Of a stretch of 64,000 bases of DNA, positions 1,619 to 19,786 are shown piece by piece. The stretch covers positions 1 through 64,000 of the forward strand of contig NZ_SEUI01000010.1 in assembly GCF_008370255.1 (NCBI RefSeq), given 5' to 3'. Position 1 is the stretch's first letter; every line of letters begins with the position of its first letter. A program made the translations under genes and the position numbers. The DNA is from Pseudoalteromonas sp. FUC4. GTDB lineage: Bacteria > Pseudomonadota > Gammaproteobacteria > Enterobacterales > Alteromonadaceae. The notes beneath the pieces were generated by a model. The model was not told the DNA's origin. It worked only from the letters and a program-made list of their open reading frames with translations, and made no database searches.

Positions 1619-1625
1619 TTTTACA

Positions 1626-2701: not shown

Positions 2702-2719
2702 TACTTCTCGACCTTATTG

Positions 2720-2747: not shown

Positions 2748-2848
2748 TTAACACACATGACACCAATTGACTAAAGTCTTTGTGCAATGTCAGCTTTTTT
2801 TAATTCTGATGAAGCACTACTTTCAGTCACAACGAAAAAGAGTTAACT

Positions 2849-5107
2849 ATGCGTTTGATTAATACAATAAAGCTTAGTCTAGTTCTCATCGGTTGCATAT
2901 CCACACAAGTAGCGGCCAAAGATTATTTTATAGAAAGTAAACAAGCTTTTAATGATATCGCAGCTAATCTAGTTGCTGGCGACAAAGTAGTACTTAAAAA
3001 TGGTACTTGGTCTGACTTCGAAATTCTACTTGAAGGCCAAGGTACAAAAAACTCTCCTATTATATTAACCGCTGAAACTAACGGAAAAGTAATTCTATCA
3101 GGTCAATCTAACCTAAGACTTGCAGGTAAATACCTTGAAGCTTCTGGTTTAGTATTTAAAGACGGCTACACACCGAGCTCAGCTGTAATAGAATTTCGTA
3201 AAAATAAAAATGAATTAGCCTACAATTCACGAGTTACTCAAACAGTAATCGATAATTACAGTAATCCAGACAAACGAGAGTCTGATTATTGGGTTGCCTT
3301 ATATGGACAACATAACCGCTTTGATCATAGCCATTTAGTTGGCAAACGAAATAAAGGTGTGACAGTTGCTGTTCGTTTAAACACTAAAGCAAGCCAGGAA
3401 AACTATCATCGTATAGATAACAACTATTTTGGCTACCGTCCTACTTTTGGTTCTAACGGTGGTGAAACCCTGCGTATTGGCACCAGCCACTACTCACTAA
3501 CTGATTCGCATACATTGGTTGAAAATAATTACTTTGAACGTACCAATGGTGAAGTGGAAATTGTTTCGGTTAAGTCAGGTAAAAACATCCTTCGTAATAA
3601 CGTATTTTATGAAGCGCGCGGTACATTAACGCTGCGCCATGGTAACAGCAATCTGATAGAAGAAAATATTTTTATTGGTAATGGTGTTGATCACACAGGT
3701 GGTATCCGCGTTATCAATAAAGATCAAATTGTAAGAAATAACTACCTACTAGGCCTTACAGGCTATCGTTTTGGCAGTGGCTTTACTGTGATGAACGGCG
3801 TACCGAATTCATCTATTAATCGTTATCACCAAGTAGAAAATGCGACGATTGAAAACAACACATTTATAAATGTGCGTCATATTCAACTTGCTGCAGGTAG
3901 CGATGCTGAGCGTAGCGCAGCCCCAAAAAATAGCGTAATGAAAAACAACTTAATCATAAACCAAGATGGTGAACAGCCATTTACAACATTCGACGATGTA
4001 AGTGGGTTAGTATTAAGTAACAACATTGCAGATACAAAAGTGCTTTCTGAGCTAACGTACGGTGTAAAAAAAGAAAAAATCACGCTTGAAAAAGCAAGTA
4101 ATGGTTTACTTTACCCAACATCTAAAAGTTTAAATGTAGGTGCAAAGCGCGATTTAAAAGTACTTAAAAAAGAAGATACCGGTGTTAGTTGGTATGCAAA
4201 AGTACCTGCTTTAGTTGATTTTGATTCTGGTAAGACGCATTCTGTTAAAGCTGATGTAAGTGCATTACTAGATGCTATTGATAATGCAGAGTCGGGCGAT
4301 GTTCTAGAACTAGCGCCTGGCCAGTATGATGTGTCTAAACTAGTTAAAATTGATAAAACGTTGACAATTAAAGCAAAGCAGAACGCAAAGTCTAAACTTA
4401 CTTTTCAACGCTCTACCTTGTTTGAAATACATGATGGCGGCAGCTTAAAACTAGATGGTTTATCAATTTCAGGTGAAAACGCGCCAGATGCTATAGGTAA
4501 CAGCATTGTTCGTACGCAAAAATGGGGTATGGTTGATAATTACCGCTTTGTAATGACCAACTCAGAGTTAAATGCTTTAGATATTAATCATTCATTCCAT
4601 TTCTTTATCACTGGTAAAGGTGCAATGGCTGACGAAATTATTGTTACAGGTAATACCTTTAATACAGTAACAGGTGACATTTTACGTCTAAATACCGAAA
4701 TTGAAGACCTAGGTGTATACAACGCGGAATACGTTATTGTAAATAATAATACATTTAATGATGTAAAAGGCGGCATAGTTAAGCTTTATCGTGGTGGCAC
4801 TGATGAAAGTACATTTGGTCCTCATTTTGAAATGACAAATAACACACTTAATAATGTCGGCCTTGGTAAGCGTAACAAAGAGCAAGCGAGCATTTATGTT
4901 CACGGTGTTCAGGTAACTAATATCAAAGATAATAAATTTGTTAAATCTGCTCCTATTGTTGTAGAGCACACCGTAGGCGAGCCTAAAACTGAAATCTTAG
5001 GCAATATATTTGATGCAACTAAAGCACCAAGCGTTAAAGAGTTAAGAGTTAAAGGCCCACACACTGCAGTATTAAAAAACAACAACATTTTAAATAAGGC
5101 AGGGTAA
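2849..5107 (+). CDS. PL6-family alginate lyase (chondroitinase-B-like), exported
   Basis: Cleaves alginate by beta-elimination outside the cytoplasm. The 752-residue protein has an N-terminal signal peptide. A possible lipobox LIGC at residues 13-16 makes it ambiguous between a secreted protein and a lipoprotein. The body is a long asparagine-rich, repetitive pattern typical of right-handed parallel beta-helices. The length suggests two helix domains, as in AlyGC-type PL6 enzymes. Candidate catalytic residues are Lys242 (in EIVSVKSG) and Arg263 (in LTLRHGN). Their 21-residue spacing matches the Lys/Arg pair described for AlyGC, with nearby Asn203, Glu235 and Glu237 as calcium-site candidates. 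It is followed 5 bp later by the PL17 gene. Confidence 0.93.
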   Translation: MRLINTIKLSLVLIGCISTQVAAKDYFIESKQAFNDIAANLVAGDKVVLKNGTWSDFEILLEGQGTKNSPIILTAETNGKVILSGQSNLRLAGKYLEASGLVFKDGYTPSSAVIEFRKNKNELAYNSRVTQTVIDNYSNPDKRESDYWVALYGQHNRFDHSHLVGKRNKGVTVAVRLNTKASQENYHRIDNNYFGYRPTFGSNGGETLRIGTSHYSLTDSHTLVENNYFERTNGEVEIVSVKSGKNILRNNVFYEARGTLTLRHGNSNLIEENIFIGNGVDHTGGIRVINKDQIVRNNYLLGLTGYRFGSGFTVMNGVPNSSINRYHQVENATIENNTFINVRHIQLAAGSDAERSAAPKNSVMKNNLIINQDGEQPFTTFDDVSGLVLSNNIADTKVLSELTYGVKKEKITLEKASNGLLYPTSKSLNVGAKRDLKVLKKEDTGVSWYAKVPALVDFDSGKTHSVKADVSALLDAIDNAESGDVLELAPGQYDVSKLVKIDKTLTIKAKQNAKSKLTFQRSTLFEIHDGGSLKLDGLSISGENAPDAIGNSIVRTQKWGMVDNYRFVMTNSELNALDINHSFHFFITGKGAMADEIIVTGNTFNTVTGDILRLNTEIEDLGVYNAEYVIVNNNTFNDVKGGIVKLYRGGTDESTFGPHFEMTNNTLNNVGLGKRNKEQASIYVHGVQVTNIKDNKFVKSAPIVVEHTVGEPKTEILGNIFDATKAPSVKELRVKGPHTAVLKNNNILNKAG

Positions 5108-5112
5108 ATACT

Positions 5113-7338
5113 ATGTACTTATTAAAATGCCAAACACGTTTTAAAATAGCTGCTGTAGCTGCAATTACATTACTTACATCATTGGGTGCGCATGCAGCGC
5201 ACCCAAACTTAGTGATTACTACTGATGATGTTAAGCAAATGCGCCAAGCAATTAGTAGCAACGGTAGCACAAAGTTTGCTACTGCGTTTGAATCGCTAAA
5301 AGCGCAAGTTGATGAACAAATAGCACAGCCTATCACTGTACCTGTACCAAAAGATGGCGGTGGTGGTTATACACATGAACGCCATAAGAAGAATTACCAA
5401 CTTATGTACAACGCGGGCATTATTTATCAATTAAGCCAAGATGATAAATACGCAAACTATGTACGTGATATGTTGCTTGAGTATGCAAAATTATACCCAA
5501 CGCTTGGTCTGCATCCAAAACGTAAAATGGACTCGCAAAATCCAGGTAAGTTTTTTTGGCAAAGCCTAAATGAAGCAATGTGGCTTGTGTACACAATACA
5601 GGCTTACGATCTAATTCATGACTCGTTAAATGCCGATAATATTAAAACAATCGAAAATGACTTACTCCGTCCTGTTTCGTTGTTCACATCAGTAGGCCAA
5701 CCTTCTACATTTAATAAAGTACATAATCATGGAACATGGGCAACAGCAGGTGTTGGCATGGCAGGTTATGTATTAGGCGAACCTGAGTGGGTAGAAAAAT
5801 CATTATACGATTTAGAAAAGTCGGGTAAGGGTGGCTTTATTAAACAGCTAGAGATGCTGTTTTCACCACAAGGTTACTATAACGAAGGTCCTTACTATCA
5901 ACGCTTTGCACTATTACCATTTGTAACGTTTGCTAAAGCGATTGAAAACAACGAACCACAACGAAAAATATTTGAATATCGCGATGGCATATTATTAAAA
6001 GCGATTGATACAACGATTCAACTTAGCTACAACGGTTTGTTTTTTCCAATTAACGATGCAATAAAAAGTAAAGGCATCGATACCATTGAGTTAGTTAATG
6101 GTGTAACTGCAGCGTATGGATTAACTAACGACGCAGGTTATTTAGATATTGCTAAGCAACAAGACCAAATAATTCTCTCTGGTGATGGGCTAAAAGTAGC
6201 TCAAGCACTTGATAACAACATGGCAAAACCTTATTCGTTTAAATCTGTTGCCTTCGGTGATGGGAATGACGGAAAGCAAGGCGCTTTAGTTGTAATGAGA
6301 ACGCAGGTAGGTGGCGATCAAGCGCTACTGTTTAAACCTGCTGCACAAGGTTTAGGCCATGGTCATTTTGATAAATTAACATGGCAGTTTTACGACCACG
6401 GAAATGAAATTGTATCTGATTATGGCGCAGCACGTTTCTTAAATGTAGAAGCTAAATACGGCGGTCGTTATTTACCTGAAAACGAAACTTACGCTAAACA
6501 CACTGTTGCGCACAATACGGTAGTAGTTGACGAAACAACGCATTTTAATGCAAATGTTGAAGTGGGAAATAGTAATTACCCTACACTTAACTTTTTCGAA
6601 ACAAATCAATACGGCACGGTTTCAAGCGGCGAAATAAGCACTGCTTATAAAGGCGTTGATCTTGAACGTACGCTTGCATTAATTAATTTACCAGAGCTTG
6701 AAAGCACCGTTGCACTTGATATATTTGATGTTGCTGCAAATAAAGCGCATCAGCTTGACTTGCCTTTGCATTATAAAGGTCAGCTTATCGATACCAGCTT
6801 TAAGCTAAAAGCAAATGCAACACAACTGTCTGCATTAGGCACTAAAAATGGCTACCAGCATTTATGGCTTAAAGCTCAAGCGCAACCTCAAAGTGGTTTA
6901 GCTAAAGTAACGTGGCTAAACGAAAATGGCCGTTTTTACACGCAGACGAGCTTGGTTAAAGGTGATGAGTCTTTCTTATTTACTCAAATAGGCGCAAACG
7001 ACCCAGATTTTAATTTACGCAACGAAAACGGTTTTATTCGTCGTGTTGAGGGTCAAAAAAATCATAAATTTATATCAGTACTAGAGCCTCACGGTGAATA
7101 CAACCCGAGTAAAGAATATACTTTAGAAGCTGTTAGTAGAGTTACAAAGCTTGAATATAGTCAGCAGGGCGATTTAACACTTGTTGAACTTGATATTAAA
7201 GGCAATTCGTATTTAGTGGCTATTAACAAAGTTGCTGAATCAGCTAAGCCTGGCAAACACACATTCAATTATCAAAATAAAGAGTTCACTTTAAATGGCC
7301 GATTGGGCGTTTATATGATGAACAATAATCAGGAGTAA
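5113..7338 (+). CDS. PL17-family oligoalginate lyase, periplasmic
   Basis: An exolytic lyase that cuts alginate oligomers from the end and releases unsaturated uronate monomers. The 741 residues start with a clear Sec signal peptide (about 1-28, ending GAHA). Next come an alpha/alpha-barrel domain (about 30-370) and a C-terminal beta-sandwich heparinase-II/III-like domain. In the barrel, Asn205-His206 (VHNHGTWA) and the GPYYQRF motif with Tyr262 correspond to the Asn, His and Tyr catalytic residues known for PL17 enzymes such as Alg17C. It is tightly coupled to the PL6 gene upstream and the cupin gene downstream (5-bp gaps), so polymer and oligomer lyases are made together. Confidence 0.94.
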   Translation: MYLLKCQTRFKIAAVAAITLLTSLGAHAAHPNLVITTDDVKQMRQAISSNGSTKFATAFESLKAQVDEQIAQPITVPVPKDGGGGYTHERHKKNYQLMYNAGIIYQLSQDDKYANYVRDMLLEYAKLYPTLGLHPKRKMDSQNPGKFFWQSLNEAMWLVYTIQAYDLIHDSLNADNIKTIENDLLRPVSLFTSVGQPSTFNKVHNHGTWATAGVGMAGYVLGEPEWVEKSLYDLEKSGKGGFIKQLEMLFSPQGYYNEGPYYQRFALLPFVTFAKAIENNEPQRKIFEYRDGILLKAIDTTIQLSYNGLFFPINDAIKSKGIDTIELVNGVTAAYGLTNDAGYLDIAKQQDQIILSGDGLKVAQALDNNMAKPYSFKSVAFGDGNDGKQGALVVMRTQVGGDQALLFKPAAQGLGHGHFDKLTWQFYDHGNEIVSDYGAARFLNVEAKYGGRYLPENETYAKHTVAHNTVVVDETTHFNANVEVGNSNYPTLNFFETNQYGTVSSGEISTAYKGVDLERTLALINLPELESTVALDIFDVAANKAHQLDLPLHYKGQLIDTSFKLKANATQLSALGTKNGYQHLWLKAQAQPQSGLAKVTWLNENGRFYTQTSLVKGDESFLFTQIGANDPDFNLRNENGFIRRVEGQKNHKFISVLEPHGEYNPSKEYTLEAVSRVTKLEYSQQGDLTLVELDIKGNSYLVAINKVAESAKPGKHTFNYQNKEFTLNGRLGVYMMNNNQE

Positions 7339-7343
7339 ACAGG

Positions 7344-7688
7344 ATGCAAAAGCAAAGCGCAAACTTTTCATTTGGCAACGAGACCGAAATTGAAGATTTA
7401 GGAAATGGTCTAAAACGTCAAATGCTAGGTTATAACGAAGAGCTAATGGCCGTTAAAATTTGGTTTGAGAAAGGGGCTATTGGTTATAACCATGCCCACA
7501 GACATTCTCAAGTAACGTATGTTGTTGAAGGTGAGTTTCACTTTAACATTGATGGCGTAACTAAAATCTTAAAACCGGGTGATAGCTGCTTAATCCCTCC
7601 ATTTGCTGATCATGGTGCTACCTGCCCAACAGGCGGAATCCTGATTGATACCTTTAGCCCAGCGCGTGAAGACTTTCTTGAGGATTAA
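7344..7688 (+). CDS. kdgF: KdgF-type cupin, unsaturated uronate linearising protein
   Basis: A 114-residue single-domain cupin. The first cupin motif (residues 48-64) contains His50, His52, His54 and Gln56, and the second motif ends with His90. Together they form the expected metal site. KdgF proteins in pectin and alginate gene clusters speed conversion of the 4,5-unsaturated uronate released by lyases into the open-chain 5-keto form (DEH). Its position between the PL17 lyase and the permease fits exactly. It has a caggag ribosome-binding site. There is no signal peptide, so it acts in the cytoplasm. Confidence 0.88.
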   Translation: MQKQSANFSFGNETEIEDLGNGLKRQMLGYNEELMAVKIWFEKGAIGYNHAHRHSQVTYVVEGEFHFNIDGVTKILKPGDSCLIPPFADHGATCPTGGILIDTFSPAREDFLED

Positions 7689-7690
7689 TT

Positions 7691-8998
7691 ATGCAACTTA
7701 AAGGCTTACGTTGGTGGGTTATAGCGCTAATTGCGCTAGCGACCATTATTAACTATATAGACCGCCAAGCACTTAGTGTGCTTTGGCCGGACATTGTTGA
7801 AGATTTATTTCCTGATGAATCAGCGCTAGAACGCAAACAAATATACGCTAACATTTCAATTGTATTTGTATTTGCTTATGCATTTGGTCAGGCAATCTTT
7901 GGTAAAATATTTGACTGGGTGGGCACACGCTTTGGTTTTGTACTATCAATAGGTGTTTGGTCTATTGCGACCGTTGCGCATGCATTTGCACAAGGTGTAC
8001 TTAGTCTTAGTATTTTTCGCGCAATCTTAGGTATAGCAGAAGCTGGTAACTGGCCTGGTGCAGCTAAAGGTAACGCAGAATGGTTCCCTACCAAGGAACG
8101 TGCTTTAGCACAGGGTATTTTTAACTCTGGCGCCGCAATTGGCGGCATTATTGCTATTCCTTTGATTGCTTATTTAACTATCTACTTTAGCTGGCAAATG
8201 GTGTTTGTTTTTGTTGGTGCATTAGGTTTCCTTTGGTTAGTTCCATGGTTAATTTTAGTTAAAGCACCGCCTAGCTCACATCCTTGGCTGACTGCTGAAG
8301 AACGTGAATATATCTTAACGGGTCAAAGACGTGTTGATGACAACGGTGATGTAACTGGTGAAGATGAAGAAGAATATAACCCTACAACTGCTGAGTTACT
8401 TTCTCGTAAGCAAAGCTGGGGTGTAATCATTGCCTCTGCTGCAATTGACCCTATTTGGTGGTTATTTGTTTTTTGGATTCCTATTTACTTAAATGAAGTA
8501 TATGGCATGGATGTTAAGTCTATTGGTATATACGGTTGGGTACCTTATGTTGGCGCTATGTTTGGTGCTTGGTTTGGTGGCTTATTGGCTCAAAATCGAC
8601 TCAAAGCAGGCTGGAATACAGACAAAACACGTAAGCTAACTATTACGCTGGGTTGTTTAATAATGCTACCTGCGTTACTTGCAATGGCAAATCCAGGTGG
8701 ACCAACAACAGCAGTACTAATTATGGCTGTTATCTTATTTGGTTTTCAAACTGCAATTGGTAACGTGCAAACACTACCAAGTGATTTGTTAGGCAAAAAA
8801 GCTGTAGGTACATTATCAGGTTTTTCTGGTATGGCGGCAAAACTTGGTGCTGTAGGTCTTACATCGCTAGTACCTTTTCTTACTGCTGATGGTAACTACA
8901 CACCAGCATTTGTAATTGGTGCTTCTTTAGCCATCATTGCAATGGCAGCTGTTTGGATTTTAATTCCAAAAATAGAACCTCTTAAAAAGCCTCAATAA
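7691..8998 (+). CDS. MFS permease, hexuronate-transporter-like (anion:cation symporter family)
   Basis: A 435-residue major facilitator superfamily protein with about 12 hydrophobic segments and the early signature NYIDRQALSVLWPDI of the hexuronate/ExuT-like group. A charged central loop (about residues 205-235, rich in Glu and Asp) separates the two halves. It starts 2 bp after kdgF. From its position it most likely imports unsaturated alginate monomer or DEH across the inner membrane. Glucuronate or galacturonate specificity is possible but less likely, as no hexuronate isomerase is nearby. Confidence 0.88.
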   Translation: MQLKGLRWWVIALIALATIINYIDRQALSVLWPDIVEDLFPDESALERKQIYANISIVFVFAYAFGQAIFGKIFDWVGTRFGFVLSIGVWSIATVAHAFAQGVLSLSIFRAILGIAEAGNWPGAAKGNAEWFPTKERALAQGIFNSGAAIGGIIAIPLIAYLTIYFSWQMVFVFVGALGFLWLVPWLILVKAPPSSHPWLTAEEREYILTGQRRVDDNGDVTGEDEEEYNPTTAELLSRKQSWGVIIASAAIDPIWWLFVFWIPIYLNEVYGMDVKSIGIYGWVPYVGAMFGAWFGGLLAQNRLKAGWNTDKTRKLTITLGCLIMLPALLAMANPGGPTTAVLIMAVILFGFQTAIGNVQTLPSDLLGKKAVGTLSGFSGMAAKLGAVGLTSLVPFLTADGNYTPAFVIGASLAIIAMAAVWILIPKIEPLKKPQ

Positions 8999-9007
8999 TC
9001 TAGATAA

Positions 9008-9050
9008 TAACTGCTATGCCAGCATATTTTGTATAAGTGCATAGCAGTTA
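9008..9050 (+). other. Intra-operon hairpin between permease and kdgK
   Basis: A perfect 12-bp inverted repeat taactgctatgc / gcatagcagtta with a 19-nt loop and no T run after it. Such a structure could stabilise the upstream membrane-protein message, or partly end transcription so that the kinase is made at a different level. Confidence 0.55.
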
Positions 9051-9072
9051 ACTACATAGGGTAACTTCCAAG

Positions 9073-10005
9073 ATGAAAAATATTTACTTTATCGGTGAAT
9101 GCATGGTCGAGCTTAGAGCTATGAGCGCGGCAACACTGCACCAATCATTTGCAGGCGATGTTTATAATTCTGCAGTGTATTTAAAACGTTGCTTCCCGCA
9201 GGTTACTACTTCGGTTGTTACGGCTTTAGGTCAAGATAATTTAAGTAAAAAAATGCTAGAACGCTTTGAGAGTGAACAAATAAATACGCAACTTGTATTT
9301 GCTCACGACACCAAAGTACCTGGTATGTACTACATAGAAACTGATGAGCATGGTGAGCGTAGTTTTATTTATTGGCGCAATGATTCTGCAGCTAAAAAGG
9401 TTGTTGATTTTTTAGATGCTGATGCACTCGAGCAGCTTAGCCAAGGTGATATGTTTTTCTTTTCAGGAATTTCATTAGCAATAATTGAAGAAAGTGCACG
9501 TGAGCATTTTTGGAAAGTTGTAAAGCAGCTTAAAGATGCTGGGGTTAAAATAGTTTTTGATCCTAACTATAGAGCGCGTTTGTGGAATAGTGTAGAGGAA
9601 ACTAAAGAGCAATATCATTTAGCCTTTACGCTTGCAGATATTACCCTACCTGGCGTTGAAGATTTAACAACACTTTATGACGTACATAGCGTAGAAGCGG
9701 TTGTTGAATATTTAAAGCCTTACCAAATTGAAGAAATTGTTGTTAAAAATGGCCCTGAATCGGTAGTGACAAAAGAGGGCGATACGCTTCAAAGCCACAC
9801 TATAATACCGGTAACAAATGTTGTAGATACGACATCCGCAGGCGATGCTTTTAACGGTGTTTACTTAGGTGCTCGTTTATCTGATAAACCAATTTCGAGT
9901 GCTGTACAACTTGCTGCAAAAGCAGCAGGTGCTGTTATACAACAGCCAGGCGCTATTGCTCCAAAAGATATATTTCAGCTAGCAATGGTTGAAGCTGGGA
10001 TCTGA
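9073..10005 (+). CDS. kdgK: 2-keto-3-deoxygluconate kinase
   Basis: Phosphorylates KDG with ATP to 2-keto-3-deoxy-6-phosphogluconate (KDPG), the entry into the Entner-Doudoroff pathway. The 310 residues form one PfkB-type ribokinase domain. The second PfkB signature is DTTSAGDAFNG (residues about 254-264), where the AGD aspartate is the catalytic base. An N-terminal GECMVEL motif is typical of KDG kinases. It lies between the permease and KDPG aldolase genes. A 162-bp interspersed repeat begins at its stop codon. Confidence 0.93.
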   Translation: MKNIYFIGECMVELRAMSAATLHQSFAGDVYNSAVYLKRCFPQVTTSVVTALGQDNLSKKMLERFESEQINTQLVFAHDTKVPGMYYIETDEHGERSFIYWRNDSAAKKVVDFLDADALEQLSQGDMFFFSGISLAIIEESAREHFWKVVKQLKDAGVKIVFDPNYRARLWNSVEETKEQYHLAFTLADITLPGVEDLTTLYDVHSVEAVVEYLKPYQIEEIVVKNGPESVVTKEGDTLQSHTIIPVTNVVDTTSAGDAFNGVYLGARLSDKPISSAVQLAAKAAGAVIQQPGAIAPKDIFQLAMVEAGI

Positions 10006-10166
10006 TACCAATTTTATTAAAAACATGATCACCTTAGCGTATTAAATAACTCACTAACTACGTTAAAAATTATTTATATAGAGCAACTATTTATCATAAT
10101 TTTAGCCTTGTTATTGAGCTATTTTCTCGTCGCTATAATAGCTCATTAATTTAATGCAATTGGTAT
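10005..10166. repeat. MITE-like element inside the alginate operon, copy 2
   Basis: A 162-bp non-coding element bounded by inverted termini ataccaatt and aattggtat. Its internal core (cgttaaaaattattta, then gagcaacta) is shared with the degenerate copy at 599-759. It starts at the last base of the kdgK stop codon and separates kdgK from eda in an otherwise tight operon. No transposase is nearby, so any mobility must have been supplied in trans. Confidence 0.75.
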
Positions 10167-10234
10167 AACAAAATAATCAAACATTAAAGGCCGCCATATC
10201 TTGGCCGCATTACTTTTTATAAAGGAACAACGTT

Positions 10235-10852
10235 ATGACTCGCTTTTCTGAACTTATGTCAGGACAAACACTGCTACCTATAATTCAAGCAGATACACCA
10301 GAGCAAGGTGTTCAAATAGCGAAAGCTATGGCCAATGCTGGCCTTACTTTAGTTGAAGTAGTGTTAAGAACAGAGGCATCATTAGAGGCATTAAAAGCTA
10401 TTAAGGCACAAGTGCCAGAGCTAAAAGTCGGTGCGGGTACAGTCATAAATACTGACATTTTAGAGCAAGCACTTGAAGCGGGTTCTGATTTTATTGTAAC
10501 CCCAGCGGTGTCTCCTACGTTACTTGAAGCACTTGCTAAATGTGATGTGCCGGTACTTCCTGGTGTATCAAACACCGGTGATATTTTAATGGCGCTTGAA
10601 TATGGCTTTGAAGAGCAAAAATTATTCCCAGCATCGCTTGCCGGTGGCGCTCCTTTTGTATCAGCTGTGTCGTCAGTATTTAGAGATGTCAGCTTTTGCC
10701 CTACAGGCGGTGTTAGCGAAAGTAACAAAATGGACTATCTTTCTTTAAATAATGTATTCGCCGTTGGCGGTACTTGGATAGCGAAAAAAGAGTGGGTTGA
10801 ACAAGAAAATTGGCAAGCAATTACCGATTCTTGTATCCAAGCTTTAAAGTAA
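10235..10852 (+). CDS. eda: KDPG aldolase (2-dehydro-3-deoxy-6-phosphogluconate aldolase)
   Basis: Splits KDPG into pyruvate and glyceraldehyde-3-phosphate. A 205-residue class I aldolase of the usual Eda length. The Schiff-base lysine is Lys129 in the QKLFPAS motif, the general acid/base is Glu41 in VEVVLRTE, and the phosphate-binding segment CPTGG is present. It is preceded by a taaagga ribosome-binding site. It follows kdgK after the inserted repeat and precedes fba by 14 bp, so the product passes straight to the next enzymes of the operon. Confidence 0.95.
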   Translation: MTRFSELMSGQTLLPIIQADTPEQGVQIAKAMANAGLTLVEVVLRTEASLEALKAIKAQVPELKVGAGTVINTDILEQALEAGSDFIVTPAVSPTLLEALAKCDVPVLPGVSNTGDILMALEYGFEEQKLFPASLAGGAPFVSAVSSVFRDVSFCPTGGVSESNKMDYLSLNNVFAVGGTWIAKKEWVEQENWQAITDSCIQALK

Positions 10853-10866
10853 AAAGGATCTTATAA

Positions 10867-11949
10867 ATGAATTATTTAGCCCCAACAATACTGCCAGGCG
10901 TAATCGTTGGCGATGAAGTAAGTGCTGTATATGAACACGCGCGTACTAATCAATATGCGTTGCCAGCGGTAAATGTTGTTAGTACAACATCTATAAATGC
11001 GACGCTAGAAGCTGCTAAAAAGAAAAACTCGCCCGTTATTATTCAGCTTTCTAACGGTGGAGCGCAGTTCTTTTGTGGTAAAAGCTTATCTTTACCAGAG
11101 CAACAATCAGCGGTGCTTGGGGCGGTAAGTGCTGCAAGGTATGTACATTCGGTTGCAGCACATTATGAAGTAGCAGTGATGCTTCATACTGATCACGCAG
11201 CTAAAAAGCTACTACCTTGGATTGATGGTTTGCTTGATGAAGGTGAAAGACACTTTGAACTGACTGGTAAACCATTGTTTAGCTCACATATGATTGATCT
11301 GTCAGAAGAGCCTTTAGAAGAAAATATCGAAATTTGTGAACGTTATTTAACGCGTATGGCAAAAATAGGTATGACGCTTGAAATTGAGCTTGGCTGCACG
11401 GGCGGCGAGGAAGACGGTGTTGATAACTCACACCTAGATAGTTCTGCTTTATATACTCAACCTGAAGATGTTGCATTTGCTTACGAACGCTTAAGCCGTA
11501 TTAGCCCTAATTTTATAATTGCAGCCTCTTTTGGCAATGTTCATGGTGTATATAAACCGGGTAACGTTGTTCTTACGCCAACTATTTTAAAAGATTCACA
11601 AGCTTACGTATCAGAAAAATTTAATCTACCAAGCAACTCAATTAACTTTGTGTTTCATGGTGGTAGTGGTTCTGAGTACAGTAAAATTGCAGAGTCTTTA
11701 ACATATGGCGTAGTGAAGATGAATATTGATACCGATACGCAGTGGGCGTGTTGGACAGGTATTTTAGATTACTACAAAGACAAGCAAGCATATCTACAAG
11801 GGCAAATTGGTAACCCAGATGGGGATGATAAGCCAAACAAGAAATACTATGACCCTCGTGTATGGCTGCGTCATTCAGAGCAAAGTATGGTTGCAAGGTT
11901 AGAGCAGTGCTTTGACGATCTAAATTGTGTAAACAGGTATAGCGCATGA
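10867..11949 (+). CDS. fbaA: Class II fructose-1,6-bisphosphate aldolase
   Basis: Reversibly joins dihydroxyacetone phosphate and glyceraldehyde-3-phosphate into fructose-1,6-bisphosphate. The 360 residues match the E. coli FbaA subgroup (about 359). Zinc-binding and active-site motifs are visible: LHTDHAAK in the first third, ELGCTGGEEDG in the middle and HGGSGSE near residue 264. It shares a 4-bp ATGA overlap with fbp, so the two are translationally coupled. In this setting it probably runs toward hexose synthesis. A housekeeping copy likely exists elsewhere, which cannot be checked here. Confidence 0.94.
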   Translation: MNYLAPTILPGVIVGDEVSAVYEHARTNQYALPAVNVVSTTSINATLEAAKKKNSPVIIQLSNGGAQFFCGKSLSLPEQQSAVLGAVSAARYVHSVAAHYEVAVMLHTDHAAKKLLPWIDGLLDEGERHFELTGKPLFSSHMIDLSEEPLEENIEICERYLTRMAKIGMTLEIELGCTGGEEDGVDNSHLDSSALYTQPEDVAFAYERLSRISPNFIIAASFGNVHGVYKPGNVVLTPTILKDSQAYVSEKFNLPSNSINFVFHGGSGSEYSKIAESLTYGVVKMNIDTDTQWACWTGILDYYKDKQAYLQGQIGNPDGDDKPNKKYYDPRVWLRHSEQSMVARLEQCFDDLNCVNRYSA

Positions 11950-12908
11950 AAAGATTAAATACAGTATTGAAAGAAGACGGTGTAGATACCGATCTTATTT
12001 TACTTATTCGCACAATTTTAGCGACCAGTAAAGAAATTGCTTTTCGAGTAAGCCAAGGTGAATTAGCCGGTGTTTTAGGCTCAACATTGAATGAAAACGT
12101 TCAAGGTGAAGTTCAGAAAAAGCTAGATGTAATCGCAAACCAACTACTTAAAGACATCCTACTTGACGATAGCAGTGTACGCTCTGTTGCATCAGAGGAA
12201 GAAGATCATGCGGTAGGTGGCCACCCTGAAGGTAAGTTTATTGTTGCTTTTGACCCGCTAGATGGCTCTTCTAATATTGATGTAAATGGCCAAATAGGCA
12301 CTATATTTACTATTTATTTAGCCCGTGACGATGTTGCCTTCGACAGCGACGAGCAATTTAGTCAGCCCGGTGTAAATCAAGTATGTGCAGGCTACGTGTT
12401 ATACGGCCCTTCATCATTACTTGTAATGAGTACTGGCGGTCCTACGCGTTGTTATACATTAGACTCAACACATGGTGGCTATTTGCTGACAAATAAGCAG
12501 TTAAGTGTTCCAGAACAAAGTCGTGAGTTTGCCGTTAATATGGCTAACTACCGTTATTGGGACGAACCGACACAAGTGTATTTTGATAAGTTGCTTTACA
12601 CCTGTGAAACCTTTGAAAAAAGCTCTATGCGCTGGAATGCTGCGATGGTAGGCGACGTTCATCGTATATTATGCCGAGGCGGGTTATTTTTGTATCCACA
12701 AGATAAACGCAGTGGTAACGATAACGGAAAAATAAGACTGCTTTATGAAGCAAACCCGTTAGCACTTTTAGTTGAAAACGCGGGTGGTAAAGCAACCTCT
12801 AGAGGAACGCGAATTTTAGATATTGCGCCAACTAGCTTGCACCAGCGTGTGCCTGTTGCTTTGGGCTCAAATGAGCCCGTAGAGTTTTATAATAACGCTA
12901 TTTTATAA
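11946..12908 (+). CDS. fbp: Fructose-1,6-bisphosphatase class I
   Basis: Hydrolyses fructose-1,6-bisphosphate to fructose-6-phosphate, the committed gluconeogenic step. The 320-residue sequence carries the metal-binding motif FDPLDGSSNID (about residues 101-111), preceded by the acidic EEEDH stretch. It is coupled to fba by a 4-bp overlap and is the last gene before a strong terminator. It completes a route from alginate-derived triose phosphate to hexose phosphate, and so to cell-wall and nucleotide sugars. Confidence 0.95.
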   Translation: MKRLNTVLKEDGVDTDLILLIRTILATSKEIAFRVSQGELAGVLGSTLNENVQGEVQKKLDVIANQLLKDILLDDSSVRSVASEEEDHAVGGHPEGKFIVAFDPLDGSSNIDVNGQIGTIFTIYLARDDVAFDSDEQFSQPGVNQVCAGYVLYGPSSLLVMSTGGPTRCYTLDSTHGGYLLTNKQLSVPEQSREFAVNMANYRYWDEPTQVYFDKLLYTCETFEKSSMRWNAAMVGDVHRILCRGGLFLYPQDKRSGNDNGKIRLLYEANPLALLVENAGGKATSRGTRILDIAPTSLHQRVPVALGSNEPVEFYNNAIL

Positions 12909-12929
12909 AGCATCACTTAGTATATAAAT

Positions 12930-12962
12930 AAAGTAGGGGCAAGATAATAACCCCTACTTTTT
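12930..12962 (+). terminator. Terminator of the alginate operon
   Basis: Perfect 10-bp stem aaagtagggg / cccctacttt with an 11-nt loop and a T run, 21 bp after fbp. Confidence 0.9.
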
Positions 12963-13349
12963 AACAATTTATCTAACGCATTCCTAATATCCACTTCCCT
13001 TACTCAATAGGTATCAGAATCTAATTTCTTAAATACCTATTAAGTAACAGCATTAATTAATCCTTCAAACTTGGGTGTTATTAGCTCCGAGTACCTAGTT
13101 TTATTTGATTGAATTTTACTAATCATTCCTTGTTCTTAATTATTCGTATTCTTCGCTTTAAACCTATCTGACATTGCGGTAATGGCAATAAGTGGCAATT
13201 GGTATACTTATTGGTAATATTTAAATCTAAAATTGGTTGATCATCGTGCTTCGTTTAAGTATATTAATGTTAAAGGTTACATAAAATATACATCAACATA
13301 ACAAGCTAACACACTAAAATCACACAACAACAACCAGCGGAGAATTCAA
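12963..13349 (+). promoter_or_regulatory. Regulatory region of the TonB receptor gene
   Basis: A non-coding stretch of 387 bp. It contains two direct copies of attggta (13198-13204 and 13210-13216) flanking a -10-like tatact (13203-13208). The half-site tattggtaat also occurs in front of the alginate operon, suggesting shared control. No other gene or RNA is evident. Confidence 0.45.
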
Positions 13350-16300
13350 ATGTCGTTGAAGTCACGAGATAACAATAATTCTACAACAGGGCAGTTTGCA
13401 ATGCGCCCAGTTGCAAAATGGGTAAGAACAGCGGTCATCGCAGGTATGGCAAGTTCTTGCGTATTTACAGCAAGCGCAAAGGAAGATCAGGGAAAAGCGA
13501 CAGAAGTTGAAGAAGACGTTGAAATAATTAGTGTTACAGGTACGCGTAGAACGATACAAGATCAAATAGCGATCAAGCGCGAGTCAACAACCGTTGTTGA
13601 TGGCTTATCATCAGAAGACATTGGTGATTTACCAGCACTTTCTATCGGTGAAGCACTTGAATCAATTACAGGTGCTGCATCTCACCGTGAAAACGGTGGT
13701 GCTACAGAAATCACTATCCGTGGTCTTGGTCCATTTTTAAGTGCAACACACATTAATGGTCGTGAAGCGACTAATGGTAGTGGTGACCGCTCAGTTAACT
13801 TTTCGCAGTTTCCGTCTGAACTTGTAAAAAAAGTAGCAATTTATAAAACGCAAGATGCGTCAATGATTGAAGGCGGTGTTGCAGGTGTTATTGCACTTGA
13901 AACTATAACTCCACTTGATTTTGGCAAGCAACGTGTATCAGCTGAAGTTAAACTAAATTACAACCCAGATGAAGGTAATGTAGATAACTCACTTCAAAGT
14001 GACGCGGGTTACCGTGGCACGTTTAGTTATGTTGACCAGTTTGAATTTGATAATGGCCAAGCCATTGGTGTGTCTTTTGGTGTACAGCGCCAAGATATTA
14101 GTCAACCAGAAGCTGAATACAGAAGCTCTAGCCCATCAGGCTCTTCATTATGGGCGTGTATAAACGATCCAAATAATACCAATGAAGGTTTTTATCGTAG
14201 TAAAGCAGGCGACTGTGAAGATCAAGTAAGTGGCGAAAAATTAAAAAACCAAGGCTACCAAACCAAAATTGATCCTGAAACGGGTAAAGCCGAAAGTGAT
14301 GGTACTCCGTATGCTTGGACTGGCAGTAGCCGTAGTTACCGCCAAAACGAAACATCAGATGAGCGTGATGCAATGTTTTTTGCACTGCAGTACCAGCCGT
14401 CAGCTGATTGGGATGTTAACTTTGATGCACAAATATCAGATAGAACACAAAAAGAAGCACGCCACGATTTAATCTTTTTACAAAAACGAGCAACACCTGG
14501 TGTAACCGGTCCAACACTTGTAACTAACGATGTAGGCGGTATTTTACATTGGGAAGGTGAAGAGCGCATTGAATCAGCGGGTGAGCAATTTTCTCGTGAA
14601 GAAAACTACCAAGGTTATGGCATAAATATAGAACATACAGTTACAGATAGATTAACTGTTGATTTAGATTTAGCGTACTCAAAAACAGAACGCGAAGAAC
14701 TTCAAATATCTAACCGTGGTAGAACCTCAAGCCAAACTTTCTTTTCTTGGGATATGGGCGATGAAATCCCTCATTTCACATTAACAGACTTTGACGTAAC
14801 AGATATTTCAAACTTTACAGATAGCCTAAGAACACGACTTGATCGTGAAAATGTTCGTGAAAACGAAGTTATTTCAGCGCGACTAGATTTTGACTATGCG
14901 CTAGATGGCAATGTTTTTACCAGTGTTCAAGGTGGTATAAGAACATCTGAAATGACCTTCCTACAGTATGGTGGTGGCCAAGGTAACGGTTCAAGAAATG
15001 AATTTACACTAGACTCTGGTACTGAAGCGCTTGACGTATTACAAGGTTGTCAAATCGATTTCCCTGAATCAGGCTTTTTATCGAGTGTATCTGATGGCGA
15101 TATCGTAACAAATGTTGATAGCGATGGTAACGTTGTAGCTAGCGGTACAGGTTCATCATGGGCTACATACGACAACGTATGTTTCTCAAAAGCTGTAGCT
15201 GGTTCTAACGTTGATGGTGTGTTTGCTTACCCAGAAGTTGAATATGAAAATACGGGTACAATTGATGTAACAGAAAAAACAACATCAGTGTACTTAATGG
15301 CGAATTACGATACTGAAATGTTTGGCAAATTCATTCGCGGTAACTTTGGTCTTCGTATTGTAGACACAGAAGTAACTTCGATTGGTTTTAGAAATAGCTT
15401 TGACGTAGTAACAAGCGACACAGGTGTACTTTCTCTGCGTGAGTCTGATAACGGTTCACTGGATAAAATAAAAAGCGGTGGTGACTACACTAAGTATTTA
15501 CCAAGTTTTAATCTAGTTATTGATTACAGCGAAGATATTTTATTCCGTGCAGGTATATACCGTGGTATGTCGCGTGCAGATCCATCTGATTTAGGATACA
15601 GCCGTACGTTCGAAGAAGATAAAGATGGTACAGCAACTTCAATCAGCGATTTATTAGTCGGTGTAAACGGTTCTGGTAACCCAGACACTCAACCGCTTAT
15701 GTCGTGGAACTATGATGCTGCGTTTGAATGGTACCCTAACGAAGATTCAATCTTAGCGTTAAGCTTATACTACAAACAGTTCAACGGCGGCTTTCAACAG
15801 CAAACAGTAATTGAAGATTTTACTGTTGGTGGTGAAACAGTTTCGTTACCAATTACTAACTCTGTTACGTCAGACGATGACAGTGAAATATTAGGTCTTG
15901 AAGCTTCATTTTCTTATCGCTGGGATAACGGCATCGGTATGAAGTTTGGTTACAACTATGCAGACACTGATTTTGAGTTCCAAGATAGCTTATACGGCGA
16001 TACGTTTGTTACTGATGTAGATGGTAATACTACACAATTAACTGACGGTATTGTTGAATCGGCTTCAGTACCTGGTTTCTCAAAGCATGTATTTAGCAGC
16101 CAGCTGTACTACCAAATTGGTGGATTTGATACTGCCGTTATTTACAAATATCGTAGTGAGTATTTCCAACCATATACTACAAATGGTACTCGACTTCGTT
16201 ATGTTGATGGCGTAGGCGTATGGGAAATGCGTGCATCATACAAAATCGATGAGCACTTCAGAGTTAAAGCAGAAGCAATTAACTTGTTCAGCGCACCTAA

Positions 16301-16388
16301 ATCACAAGATTTCTTTGTTGAAGGTAACCTTGGTGAGGTGAATGACTACGGCCCACGCTTATTCTTAGGTTTAAGCTACAAGCTGTGA
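13350..16388 (+). CDS. TonB-dependent outer-membrane receptor, probable alginate-oligosaccharide importer
   Basis: The 1012-residue protein belongs to the large Xanthomonas/Caulobacter-type TonB-dependent receptors used for carbohydrates. It has an N-terminal signal region (about 1-43, unusually long n-region), a TonB-box-like segment IISVTGTR near residue 60, a plug domain (about 75-190, with ITIRGLGPFL) and a 22-strand barrel ending in an aromatic C-terminus (LGLSYKL). It follows the alginate operon in the same direction and has its own upstream region sharing a half-site with the operon promoter. Alginate as ligand is inferred from context only. Confidence 0.88.
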   Translation: MSLKSRDNNNSTTGQFAMRPVAKWVRTAVIAGMASSCVFTASAKEDQGKATEVEEDVEIISVTGTRRTIQDQIAIKRESTTVVDGLSSEDIGDLPALSIGEALESITGAASHRENGGATEITIRGLGPFLSATHINGREATNGSGDRSVNFSQFPSELVKKVAIYKTQDASMIEGGVAGVIALETITPLDFGKQRVSAEVKLNYNPDEGNVDNSLQSDAGYRGTFSYVDQFEFDNGQAIGVSFGVQRQDISQPEAEYRSSSPSGSSLWACINDPNNTNEGFYRSKAGDCEDQVSGEKLKNQGYQTKIDPETGKAESDGTPYAWTGSSRSYRQNETSDERDAMFFALQYQPSADWDVNFDAQISDRTQKEARHDLIFLQKRATPGVTGPTLVTNDVGGILHWEGEERIESAGEQFSREENYQGYGINIEHTVTDRLTVDLDLAYSKTEREELQISNRGRTSSQTFFSWDMGDEIPHFTLTDFDVTDISNFTDSLRTRLDRENVRENEVISARLDFDYALDGNVFTSVQGGIRTSEMTFLQYGGGQGNGSRNEFTLDSGTEALDVLQGCQIDFPESGFLSSVSDGDIVTNVDSDGNVVASGTGSSWATYDNVCFSKAVAGSNVDGVFAYPEVEYENTGTIDVTEKTTSVYLMANYDTEMFGKFIRGNFGLRIVDTEVTSIGFRNSFDVVTSDTGVLSLRESDNGSLDKIKSGGDYTKYLPSFNLVIDYSEDILFRAGIYRGMSRADPSDLGYSRTFEEDKDGTATSISDLLVGVNGSGNPDTQPLMSWNYDAAFEWYPNEDSILALSLYYKQFNGGFQQQTVIEDFTVGGETVSLPITNSVTSDDDSEILGLEASFSYRWDNGIGMKFGYNYADTDFEFQDSLYGDTFVTDVDGNTTQLTDGIVESASVPGFSKHVFSSQLYYQIGGFDTAVIYKYRSEYFQPYTTNGTRLRYVDGVGVWEMRASYKIDEHFRVKAEAINLFSAPKSQDFFVEGNLGEVNDYGPRLFLGLSYKL

Positions 16389-16413
16389 CTGTTGTTTTAG
16401 CTTAATACCCACT

Positions 16414-16439
16414 AAAAAGGAGCGCATGCGCTCCTTTTT
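16414..16439. terminator. Bidirectional terminator between the TonB receptor and mltD
   Basis: Self-complementary aaaaaggagcgca / tgcgctccttttt hairpin with runs on both sides, serving two convergent genes. Confidence 0.88.
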
Positions 16440-16461
16440 ACTTTTAATATAGTTTTATAAA

Positions 16462-18030
16462 TTAACTACTTCTGACATCTACTTTAAGTTTTAGCTTTTG
16501 GCCAGGTTGTAAGTATTTTTGACCAGCTAAGTTATTCCACTTAATAATTTCGTTAACGCTTAGGTTAAACTTAGACGCAATACGTGCAAGTGAGTCACCA
16601 CGGCGTACTTTGTATGTAATGGTACGGTTGGTACTTGCCGTTGCTTGTGGTTTATTAGCTGACTTATACACAGTAAGTTTTTGATTTAGGCGCAGTACAG
16701 AGTTTTTCTTTAGCTTATTCCATTTAGCCAACTCATCCATAGTTACGTCATATTCGCGGCTAATGTCCCATAAAGTGTCGCCACTTTTAACTGTGTGCGA
16801 AAGCTTTGTGCGTGTTGCTTTATTAGCAGCTAAACGCATCTGCTTTGGTAAATGTTCGCTATTTATAGCGCCATCAGTAAGCGGGACTAGTAACTCTTGG
16901 CCTACTTTAATCGTATTTGATTTGAGTTTATTAAGCGATCGGATTGCGCTTGAGCTTGTTGTAAACTTTTTGGCAATTACTGATAAGCTGTCGCCTCGAG
17001 CCACAATATAACGTTGCCAGCGTAATCTGTTTTTAACATCAGTGTTTGCTAGTTTTTGGCTAAATTGCTCTGCTTTATCTACTGGCAGTAATAAAGAATG
17101 CGGGCCATTAGGATCAGTTGCCCAGCGATTAAAACCGGGGTTTAATCTGTATAGCTCAGTAAGCGTCATATCGGCCATATCAGCAGCAAGTGCTAAATCT
17201 ATTTGCGAGCCAACATCAACCACTTCAACCACTTGTGCATTAATTACTGGTTGCCATGTAACGTTAAAATCATCTGAGCGTTTTAATAAGTCGGCAAGTG
17301 CTAATAACTTTGGTACGTAGGCTGTTGTTTCGCTTGGTAAATCAAGAGACCAAAAATCGGTAGGTAAATGCTTTTTACGATTCTTTTTAATAGCGCGCAT
17401 CAAGCGCCCTTCACCCGAGTTGTAAGCAGCAATCGCATTTAGCCAATCACCTTCAAGTGTTTTATGTAAATACGATAAGTAGTCAAGTGCTGCGCGAGTC
17501 GACTGCACTATGTCGCGACGACCGTCGTACCACCAGTTTTGTTTTAAATCGAATCGCTCACCGGTTGCAGGCATAAACTGCCAAATGCCCGATGCACTGC
17601 GATTAGAATAACCAAATGGGTCAAATGCGCTTTCTACAATAGGCAGTAGTGCAATTTCGATTGGCATTTCGCGCTTTTCTACTTCTTCAACTATAAAGTG
17701 TAAGTAAGGTTCTGCACGTTTAGAAATACGATCTAAATAGGCTTGGTGGCGAGCGTAATAATTACGCTCAGTAACAACAGGGCGGTTTTGCGGTATTTCG
17801 ATAGAAAGTTGGTAGCGAATTCGCTCCCATACATCATCAAACACGGGAGCTTCTTGCTCATCAGGGTCAACTTGCTGATATTGTGCGTTTACCATCAATG
17901 CATTGTTAATGTCGTTAGGACTTGCGCCTTCGAGTTGTTGGTCTGCTTGAGAGTCTGAGTCTAAAGTTGTCACAGTTTGACAACCACTTAGCGCTAACGC
18001 CAAGGCTACTAATAGGGGAGATTTATTCAT
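16462..18030 (-). CDS. mltD: Membrane-bound lytic murein transglycosylase D with three LysM domains
   Basis: Cleaves peptidoglycan glycan strands with formation of 1,6-anhydro-muramyl ends. A lipoprotein signal (LALSGC) implies outer-membrane anchoring. Next come an SLT catalytic domain with the glutamate motif PIVESAFDP and the segment SASGIWQFMP, and then three LysM peptidoglycan-binding repeats in about the last 190 residues. I place the start at the ATG at 18030 (522 residues). A TTG three codons upstream would add only MVF. A convergent terminator is shared with the TonB receptor gene. Confidence 0.93.
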   Translation of the reverse strand: MNKSPLLVALALALSGCQTVTTLDSDSQADQQLEGASPNDINNALMVNAQYQQVDPDEQEAPVFDDVWERIRYQLSIEIPQNRPVVTERNYYARHQAYLDRISKRAEPYLHFIVEEVEKREMPIEIALLPIVESAFDPFGYSNRSASGIWQFMPATGERFDLKQNWWYDGRRDIVQSTRAALDYLSYLHKTLEGDWLNAIAAYNSGEGRLMRAIKKNRKKHLPTDFWSLDLPSETTAYVPKLLALADLLKRSDDFNVTWQPVINAQVVEVVDVGSQIDLALAADMADMTLTELYRLNPGFNRWATDPNGPHSLLLPVDKAEQFSQKLANTDVKNRLRWQRYIVARGDSLSVIAKKFTTSSSAIRSLNKLKSNTIKVGQELLVPLTDGAINSEHLPKQMRLAANKATRTKLSHTVKSGDTLWDISREYDVTMDELAKWNKLKKNSVLRLNQKLTVYKSANKPQATASTNRTITYKVRRGDSLARIASKFNLSVNEIIKWNNLAGQKYLQPGQKLKLKVDVRSS

Positions 18031-18185
18031 AAATACCAATACATCGGGTAAAAAACTCGGCGAATACTACCTGTTATGAGTTAACATTGCCACTTAATGA
18101 CTTTTTAAAACGCAGAAATAGAATCATCACTATATGTTAAGTTAATGATTCTAATAAAATAAATATTAAAGTATTAGTTTGTGCA

Positions 18186-18959
18186 TTAAAAATTGTCTTT
18201 GAACTGTCTCAGACTCGCAAAGTTTCCCCAAGGTTCATTGTTTTTTGTAACCGAGATAAATTTCTCCGGTACTAACTCTGTAATGGTTGGCAAATCGCTA
18301 CGCATAAATGGATTTATTTTTAGCTCTTGTCCAATAGAAGTAGGTAATGAGATTTGATTATTACTGCGTAATTCATCTACTTTTTTACTGTACGCGAGTA
18401 ACTCAGGGTTACGTGGTTCAACTGCTTTGGCAAAGGCAAGATTAGCTTGTGTGTATTCGTGCGTGCAATATACAACACAGCTTGTAGGCAGCTCTCTTAG
18501 TTTATTAAAAGATTTCCACATTTGCTCCGGCGTGCCTTCAAATAAGCGCCCACATCCACCGCTAAACAATGTATCGCCTGTAAAAGCAAGTTCATCATTT
18601 GTATAACAAATATGATCAAGCGTGTGCCCAGGAGTTGCTAAAATAGTAAAGTTAACATTAAGTACGTTAATGCTCTGGCCATCAGTAAGTGAATGAGTGA
18701 TACCTTTAAATGGGCTATTAGCAGGACCATAAACCGATATATTTGGATAGGCGTCAACTAATTCAGCTACGCCATCGGTATGATCGTAGTGATGATGCGT
18801 AATTAAAATACCACCAAGCGTTAGTTTGTGCTCAGCTAAATGCGCTAATACGTTCTGTGCTTGGCCAGGATCGACTACCCATGCTTGGGTACTGTTATCG
18901 GTAGTTAAACACCAAATGTAATTATCAGAAAAGGCTTTAATTGCTTTGACTTGCACCAT
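18186..18959 (-). CDS. gloB: Hydroxyacylglutathione hydrolase (glyoxalase II)
   Basis: Hydrolyses S-lactoylglutathione to lactate and glutathione, completing methylglyoxal detoxification started by GloA. The 257-residue metallo-beta-lactamase-fold protein carries the binuclear metal motif THHHYDHTDG. Further ligands are in GHTLDH and FTGDTLF, and the C-terminal substrate domain contains CTHEYT. It is transcribed divergently from the methyltransferase gene 53 bp away, an arrangement also found around E. coli gloB. Confidence 0.95.
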   Translation of the reverse strand: MVQVKAIKAFSDNYIWCLTTDNSTQAWVVDPGQAQNVLAHLAEHKLTLGGILITHHHYDHTDGVAELVDAYPNISVYGPANSPFKGITHSLTDGQSINVLNVNFTILATPGHTLDHICYTNDELAFTGDTLFSGGCGRLFEGTPEQMWKSFNKLRELPTSCVVYCTHEYTQANLAFAKAVEPRNPELLAYSKKVDELRSNNQISLPTSIGQELKINPFMRSDLPTITELVPEKFISVTKNNEPWGNFASLRQFKDNF

Positions 18960-19012
18960 GGTAAATTGCTCTATAAAGTGACACTTATCGCATAGTATAA
19001 CGAGCTCAAAAA

Positions 19013-19786
19013 ATGAAACCAGCCCTTAGTTTTCAAGAAGGACCCAAACCACTGTCGTGGCAGCAGTTTCCTCATGGGGATTATTTGCGCACAGACATCG
19101 AACGAAAGATGGAGCAATGGCTGCCGCGTATGTTTGGCTATCATATGCTTAAGTTGGGTAATTTAAGTGGCGAATTAAACACAAGTATAAGTACGATTAA
19201 ACACCAAGTGTGTGTTGCTGAGCCTGGGCCTTACACTGGGGTCGTCGCTGACATAGATGAATTGCCATTTTACGAGCACAGTATTGATGCTTGTATACTA
19301 AGCCACTGCTTAGAGTATCATTCAGACCCACATCACATTTTACGAGAAGCACATCGCACGCTTATTCCGGGCGGTTATATACTAGTGACCGGTTTTAATC
19401 CATTTAGTTTGTGCGGATTTGCACAAATGTTGCCTTTTAGCGGTCAAAAATTACCATGGACTGGGCGCTTTTTTACCCCTGCGAGGGTTAAAGATTGGCT
19501 AAATTTATTAGGTTTTGAAATTGTAAGTGACGAACGTTTTATTTATTCATCACTGGCAAGAGGTAACAGGTTATCAAGATTTGAGTTTTGGCGGACTTTT
19601 GCAAAACAGTATTTAAAACCGATGGGTAGTGTGTATATGCTGGTGGCGAGAAAACGAGTAGCCCCGCTTACACCTATCAAACCTAAATGGCATGCAAGGC
19701 CGCAGTTTGCGCCAGTAAAAGGGGCAGGGCTTAGGCAAACCTCAAAGCAGCACTTTAAGCGCTGCGATGAAAAAAATAACAATTAA
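19013..19786 (+). CDS. SAM-dependent methyltransferase, YafS-like
   Basis: A 257-residue class I methyltransferase-like protein. The central segment around [20 protein letters not shown] and the later [16 protein letters not shown] match SAM-binding and post-motif regions of the Methyltransf_11 group. The usual glycine-rich motif I is weak, so the cofactor site is partly degenerate. It lies between gloB and rnhA, as yafS does in E. coli, so the identity rests largely on synteny. The substrate is unknown. The gene ends with a 4-bp convergent overlap with rnhA. Confidence 0.8.

Follow-up and report, generated by a model that had tools for sequence, protein, structure and literature searches.

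Polysaccharide utilization loci (PULs) are usually described in terms of polymer uptake and breakdown to KDPG or triose phosphate. Extra aldolase or bisphosphatase copies dedicated to one carbon source are a feature of cbb operons, and extra copies of glpX and fba that serve one carbon source are carried on a plasmid in Bacillus methanolicus (PMC11005471). A fructose-1,6-bisphosphatase (FBPase) gene lies within a triose-phosphate-yielding catabolic operon in glpFKX, where the enzyme is the class II protein GlpX (PMC5892879). The alginate-related PUL 1 of Pseudoalteromonas carrageenovora 9T has been described by Gobet et al. 2018 (PMC6262041); eda, fba and fbp appear by name in the legend of their Figure 4, with synteny of the locus reported as conserved in 19 Pseudoalteromonas genomes. 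In the main text of that paper 'fba' and 'fbp' occur once each, both in the legend, and their function, second copies and recurrence are not discussed there. For the ulvan locus of Pseudoalteromonas marina, rhamnose is reported to yield DHAP and the uronates GAP, and the words 'aldolase', 'bisphosphatase' and 'fructose' have no occurrences in the main text of that report (PMC13050008). No discussion of the role of the operon fba-fbp pair was found in the open-access literature searched.

Organization of the alginate operon

The window, a stretch of 64,000 nucleotides, derives from a Pseudoalteromonas genome of 4.33 Mb in 16 contigs. Near its left end a single rightwards-transcribed cluster of the P. 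carrageenovora PUL 1 type contains genes for PL6 and PL17 lyases, KdgF, an MFS transporter, KdgK and a reductase together with eda, fba, fbp and a TonB receptor gene. The leftmost gene (1823-2701) codes for an NAD_binding_2 protein (Pfam PF03446, 149 bits), presumed to be the DEH reductase, for which no NCBIfam equivalog scores above its cut-off. It is followed by a PL6-type lyase gene (2849-5107; PF14592, 385 bits), so labelled through its counterpart in PMC6262041, a PL17-type oligoalginate lyase gene (5113-7338; PF05426 and PF07940; NF042990 821 bits, cut-off 1400), a cupin gene (7344-7688; PF07883) presumed to be kdgF from its position as in PMC6262041, an MFS transporter gene (7691-8998; PF07690, 177 bits) and the KDG kinase gene kdgK (9073-10005; PF00294; NF052444 303 bits, cut-off 400); the PL17 and KdgK products are above the Pfam cut-offs and below the equivalog ones. 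The three genes that follow are a second copy of the KDPG aldolase gene eda (10235-10852; TIGR01182 211 bits, cut-off 156), the class IIA fructose-bisphosphate aldolase gene fba (10867-11949; NF006628 583 bits, cut-off 297; TIGR01520 560 bits, cut-off 347.7) and the class 1 FBPase gene fbp (11946-12908; NF006779 402 bits, cut-off 349). A putative TonB-dependent receptor gene (13350-16388) is recognized as an open reading frame with homologues 3' of fbp in nine of the named loci. No regulator gene adjoining the operon was recognized on reading the open reading frames.

The genes from the reductase to fba are separated by 147, 5, 5, 2, 74, 229 and 14 bp; the last pair, fba and fbp, shares the ATGA at 11946-11949. 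The sequence-only reading had described fba and fbp as built into an alginate operon directly after eda and coupled by an ATGA overlap, and this is borne out by the open reading frames, the family assignments, the 14-bp eda-fba gap and the overlap itself.

The 229-bp gap between kdgK and eda consists mostly of an inserted repeat, present in four of the 13 loci compared; the gap is 56-145 bp in the other nine. This repeat (10004-10176) is 173 bp long with inverted ends, and has a 93% copy in another stretch of the same genome (L119) and a weak match at 620-701 of the window; one further locus (L036) has an additional insert at the same site. A strong hairpin is predicted in this gap in one locus (L043; z -2.5) and could reduce downstream expression there; the other seven of the eight folded gaps have z > -1.2. 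The gap between fbp and the receptor gene (12909-13349) is 441 bp in the window, and is occupied in L034 and L288 by an open reading frame of 916 aa (912 aa in L289), the start of which resembles that of a lipoprotein. Pfam does not identify the 916-aa product, and so lends no support to its being a second PL6. At the very start of the contig the 8-base unit AAAAATCC is repeated perfectly 22.8 times (window 1-182), which may mark an assembly edge or a repeat of variable length.

The aldolase and FBPase have second copies in the genome

By score and motifs the predicted product of the operon fba is a class IIA fructose-bisphosphate aldolase. The segments TDH, EIELGCTGGEEDG, NVHGVYKPGN, FHGGSGS and KMNIDTDTQ align to 5gk3, and include what we take to be the catalytic Asp and metal-binding motifs, positioned as in Escherichia coli FbaA. 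Score and motif likewise identify the predicted fbp product as a class 1 FBPase, not a member of the class II GlpX family; its DPLDGSSNID motif aligns to 7k74 and 2gq1, the alignment to 2gq1 beginning at residue 17, past the N-terminal segment relevant to the AMP inhibition site.

A genome search for further fba and fbp genes, proposed in the sequence-only reading, shows that the operon genes are not sole copies. The other class II aldolase (C11:473922) is class IIB (TIGR01521 638 bits, cut-off 496), is 25-32% identical to the operon Fba, and sits in an epd-pgk-fba cluster, pgk being named by similarity at a score under its cut-off. The other class 1 FBPase (C11:227835) is 57% identical to the operon Fbp. 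The genome also has four Eda-family genes, one of which adjoins edd (edd-eda at C1:1104672-1107143), and no match to the phosphofructokinase (PFK) family PF00365. With edd-eda present and no PF00365 match, a gluconeogenic direction is plausible and a glycolytic role unlikely.

Distribution in Pseudoalteromonas

An FBPase occurs in all 108 Pseudoalteromonas genomes searched, PFK in 76, a class IIA aldolase (E 1e-40) in 24 and a PL17 match in 23. The eda-fba-fbp order occurs in 20 of these 23 PL17-bearing genomes, in 18 on the PL17 contig and in two (G070 and G030) broken by contig ends, which speaks against a chance arrangement. The remaining three include G140 and G143, with PL6-PL17-eda and no fba-fbp at the locus, and G152, whose PL17 gene has no other operon genes within the 14.5 kb examined; their PL17 proteins are 43-60% identical. 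Outside the genus, an Aestuariibacter MAG (L047) has the same operon, and at least three alginate operons from other genera of the same family (G267, G341 and G301) reach eda-fba and have no fbp, each of these genomes having one FBPase at E 1e-85, located elsewhere; no PL17 was seen in G301. As such, the fba-fbp pair is not obligatory in alginate operons. A 119-aa FBPase piece at a contig edge in a genome with 9% contamination (G066:C105:2-358) is 99% identical to the window Fbp; it is probably foreign, and was left out of the FBPase count.

PFK is absent from 18 of the 20 operon carriers versus 14 of the 88 non-carriers (Fisher 4.7e-10), with two of the 20 operons in PFK-bearing genomes. A kinship-aware comparison, on a tree of housekeeping fbp DNA from 49 of the 108 genomes, yields only four supported independent pairs with a difference in the operon, and PFK differs in the same way in 1.0 and in the opposite way in 1.0 of these on average (sign test p 1); the test has little power. 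PFK loss as the reason for the operon pair is not claimed, the association being confounded by kinship.

FBPase and aldolase genes recur with other catabolic pathways

Six complete extra FBPase genes outside alginate operons are present among the 108 genomes. Two lie in tetronate clusters, one (G021) adjoining genes for L-threonate dehydrogenase, OtnK, OtnC and an fba, again with an overlap of ATGA length, and the other (G069) adjoining OtnK, OtnC and fba genes. The expected product of OtnC is DHAP. In the G021 cluster (L114 7506-14421) two OtnK/OtnC pairs flank fba-fbp, and the OtnK reading frames start identically. Two further FBPase genes (G029:C37:38445 and G143:C6) both have a KDG-kinase-type gene nearby (NF052444 346 and 334 bits respectively, cut-off 400), and the first is also near a sulfatase and a TRAP transporter in a domain scan. 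In both of these genomes a class IIA fba adjoins a rhamnulose-1-phosphate aldolase gene, 36 kb from the FBPase gene on the same contig in G143 and on a different contig in G029. The FBPase gene of G020 adjoins genes for glycerol kinase, GlpR, a major-intrinsic protein, a GlpD-type protein (254 bits, cut-off 360) and a class I aldolase (NF003784). The sixth (G029:C37:12181) is accompanied by fba and by genes for a TonB-type receptor and a pectate-lyase-like protein, with a weak GH88 match in the same cluster. Judged by neighbouring gene families, on which these pathway assignments rest, five of the six should serve pathways with a triose-phosphate end product (tetronate 2, rhamnose/ulvan 2, glycerol 1), no end product being assigned to G029:C37:12181. 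What the present analysis adds is this recurrence of the combination within the genus, in clusters for chemically unlike foods that share a triose-phosphate product.

A class IIA aldolase gene also occurs alone in G016, a PFK-bearing genome, near genes for an aldo-keto reductase and a fructuronate-reductase-like protein (under cut-off). Beyond the genus, Alteromonas aestuariivivens has genes for rhamnulose-1-phosphate aldolase and rhamnose isomerase together with fba and a convergent fbp, after which comes a LUD-domain gene. Cellvibrio mixtus has tpiA-fba-fbp (L052 9140-12119), the whole route from triose phosphate to fructose-6-phosphate together, with no catabolic gene recognized nearby. In a sample of the order comprising 345 genomes, three of which are Pseudoalteromonas, a second FBPase at E 1e-85 or better was seen solely in the genome studied here, at a threshold that misses distant FBPases; this sample gives no sign that possession of two FBPases is common outside the genus.

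Phylogeny and selection

A single FBPase clade (99/92) contains the alginate (21), rhamnose (3) and tetronate (2) enzymes together with those of the G029:C37:12181 cluster and Cellvibrio. All six extra FBPases save the glycerol one thus group with those of the alginate operons and separately from the housekeeping enzyme; the glycerol-cluster FBPase of G020 is placed with the housekeeping sequences, at the end of a very long branch. The alginate and rhamnose FBPases are sisters (100/99). Placements of the long branches (L116, L117, L052 and L182) are unsure, and on their removal the housekeeping and catabolic FBPases are still apart (100/99). The tree includes 56 of 57 Fbp rows, L209 having no extractable open reading frame. 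Recent duplication of the housekeeping gene was considered as the source of the alginate FBPases and dismissed, a clade of these with the housekeeping copies of the genus being rejected (AU p 5e-6); with the rhamnose, tetronate and G029 FBPases added to that clade, the result is marginal only (AU p 0.045).

The Fba tree includes 53 of 56 rows, with L048, L214 and L051 left out for the same reason. A joint origin of aldolase and FBPase was also discarded, in that the alginate and rhamnose aldolases are rejected as one clade (AU p 0.003) and the corresponding FBPases are sisters, and the two histories differ in part. A wider aldolase group (alginate, remnant, rhamnose, tetronate, G029 and G378) is allowed (p 0.31) and not demonstrated, as is a group of the alginate aldolases with those of the fbp-less alginate operons (p 0.26). 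Most simply, fba would have entered the alginate operon before fbp, although the aldolase tree does not establish orthology of the fba genes in fbp-less operons.

Selection is purifying, with dN/dS values of 0.02-0.09 where dS is computable, many pairs being saturated. Two genomes without a PL17 match (G020 and G021) have lost the operon and retain a decayed eda beside an intact fba (L132 8198-8960 and L133 8054-8815), and the two fba genes differ by dN 0.002 and dS 0.129. The aldolase is useful in these two species without the operon, which argues against a strictly alginate-bound role. Of the alginate-specific gluconeogenic arm envisaged in the sequence-only reading, the direction is made plausible by edd-eda and the lack of a PF00365 match, and an fba that has outlived its operon speaks against a restriction to alginate.

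Promoter-like elements

A promoter-like element, ATTGGTTGACAA (1585-1618, + strand), which in the window contains a TTGACA-17-TACAGT-like promoter, precedes the reductase gene in all 13 loci compared, and none of the 13 has an exact copy on the same strand from the start of the reductase gene to the end of fbp. A related element, ATTGGTTGATCA (13232-13265, + strand), precedes the TonB receptor gene in seven of the ten loci that have the receptor. These shared elements fit a single transcript with co-regulation of the receptor gene, which probably belongs to the same regulon; they do not amount to evidence for induction by alginate, on which they and the short intergenic gaps bear only indirectly. 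Allowing one mismatch, the pattern has nine matches in the window versus 1.65 expected, and some are elsewhere, so that the matches are no proof of a regulon. Scans for consensus promoters and terminators give totals at chance level, and Rfam gives nothing at the gathering threshold within 1-20000. An operator of the form ATTGGTATACCAAT, presumably that of UxuR/FadR-type regulators, was sought and dropped, with weak matches only.

A probable lower-to-upper link for growth on alginate

We think it likely that the alginate operon carries its own link from lower to upper metabolism, returning triose phosphate to fructose-6-phosphate. This reading draws together the second copies, edd-eda elsewhere in the genome, the lack of a PF00365 match, the conservation in 20 of 23 genomes, the promoter-like element in 13 of 13 loci, the recurrence with triose-phosphate pathways and the dN/dS values. 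Counting against it are the three PL17-bearing genomes that have no fba-fbp at the locus, the fbp-less operons of related genera, the surviving fba of G020 and G021, the hairpin of L043 and the two operons found in PFK-bearing genomes. Cleavage of alginate would give monomers, and their reduction and phosphorylation KDPG, from which the operon Eda would release pyruvate and glyceraldehyde-3-phosphate, with DHAP presumably formed by the housekeeping triose-phosphate isomerase. Fructose-1,6-bisphosphate would form from these two triose phosphates by the action of the predicted class IIA aldolase, to be converted irreversibly to fructose-6-phosphate by the predicted class 1 FBPase. In the absence of PFK the expected flux would be one-way, and if the genes are co-induced the supply of hexose and pentose phosphates, the presumed physiological need, would be matched to that of alginate.

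The same genes could be put to other uses. Fructose-6-phosphate formed from triose phosphate might pass through glucose-6-phosphate and 6-phosphogluconate and go round again by the Entner-Doudoroff route, as in the EDEMP cycle of Pseudomonas putida, mainly to supply NADPH/NADH for the DEH reductase and for biosynthesis. The genome would permit this, having edd-eda and no PF00365 match, and in the established pathway one reductant is spent per uronate at the reductase; but the reductase has an Asp after the second strand (VMDLSKD), which usually denotes a preference for NADH, and we consider such cycling improbable as the main purpose. Less probable still is that the enzymes act chiefly on sedoheptulose-1,7-bisphosphate, supplying the pentose phosphate pool instead of fructose-6-phosphate. 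Although the Brucella Fbp is reported to act on both bisphosphates, with Fba required (PMC11005471), the sequence offers nothing in favor of sedoheptulose-1,7-bisphosphate, and on this substrate erythrose-4-phosphate itself requires fructose-6-phosphate, as argued in that report.

A dosage explanation, in which fba and fbp are extra copies carried along by the operon without any alginate-related role, would account for the intact fba of G020 and G021 and for the lack of fbp in at least three alginate operons of related genera. It is at odds with the presence of eda-fba-fbp in most PL17-bearing genomes, with purifying selection and with the reappearance of the combination beside other triose-phosphate pathways, and it seems unlikely. 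We thus favor the lower-to-upper link, and more tentatively suggest, at somewhat less than even chances, that Pseudoalteromonas and some relatives possess a portable module for converting triose phosphate to fructose-6-phosphate. This would combine an FBPase from a distinct catabolic clade with aldolases of varied origin (class IIA, and once class I with a divergent FBPase), and would have been recruited repeatedly for alginate, tetronates, rhamnose/ulvan and glycerol. If so, hexose-phosphate supply would be a selectable limit in Entner-Doudoroff-type marine bacteria on foods that enter as triose phosphate.

Comparison with known systems

The alginate locus holds, in addition to the steps usually ascribed to such loci, a predicted step that returns part of the carbon to hexose phosphate. 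The same addition in clusters for unrelated foods suggests a rule for their interpretation that can be put to the test, and its recurrence hints at what may limit growth on seaweed polymers. The description of this arrangement in the sequence-only reading as unusual for a catabolic cluster was overstated, in that it is the usual end of this operon type in the genus, the PUL 1 synteny was already published, and glpFKX follows the same logic.

PUL 1 of P. carrageenovora 9T is the same operon as that in the window. The closest precedent is glpFKX, which resembles the alginate operon in FBPase placement only, and differs in having the other FBPase class, no aldolase judging by name, and glycerol rather than alginate as its substrate. 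The glycerol cluster of G020 (L182) is similar in having a class 1 FBPase gene beside an aldolase gene, although the aldolase is class I and not homologous to class IIA, and the FBPase is only ~50% identical. The B. methanolicus plasmid genes and the cbb operons differ in serving one-carbon assimilation cycles, not polysaccharide catabolism. The alginate case is set apart from glpFKX, a known instance of an FBPase gene in an operon that yields triose phosphate, by the enzyme class, the inclusion of an aldolase and the polysaccharide context.
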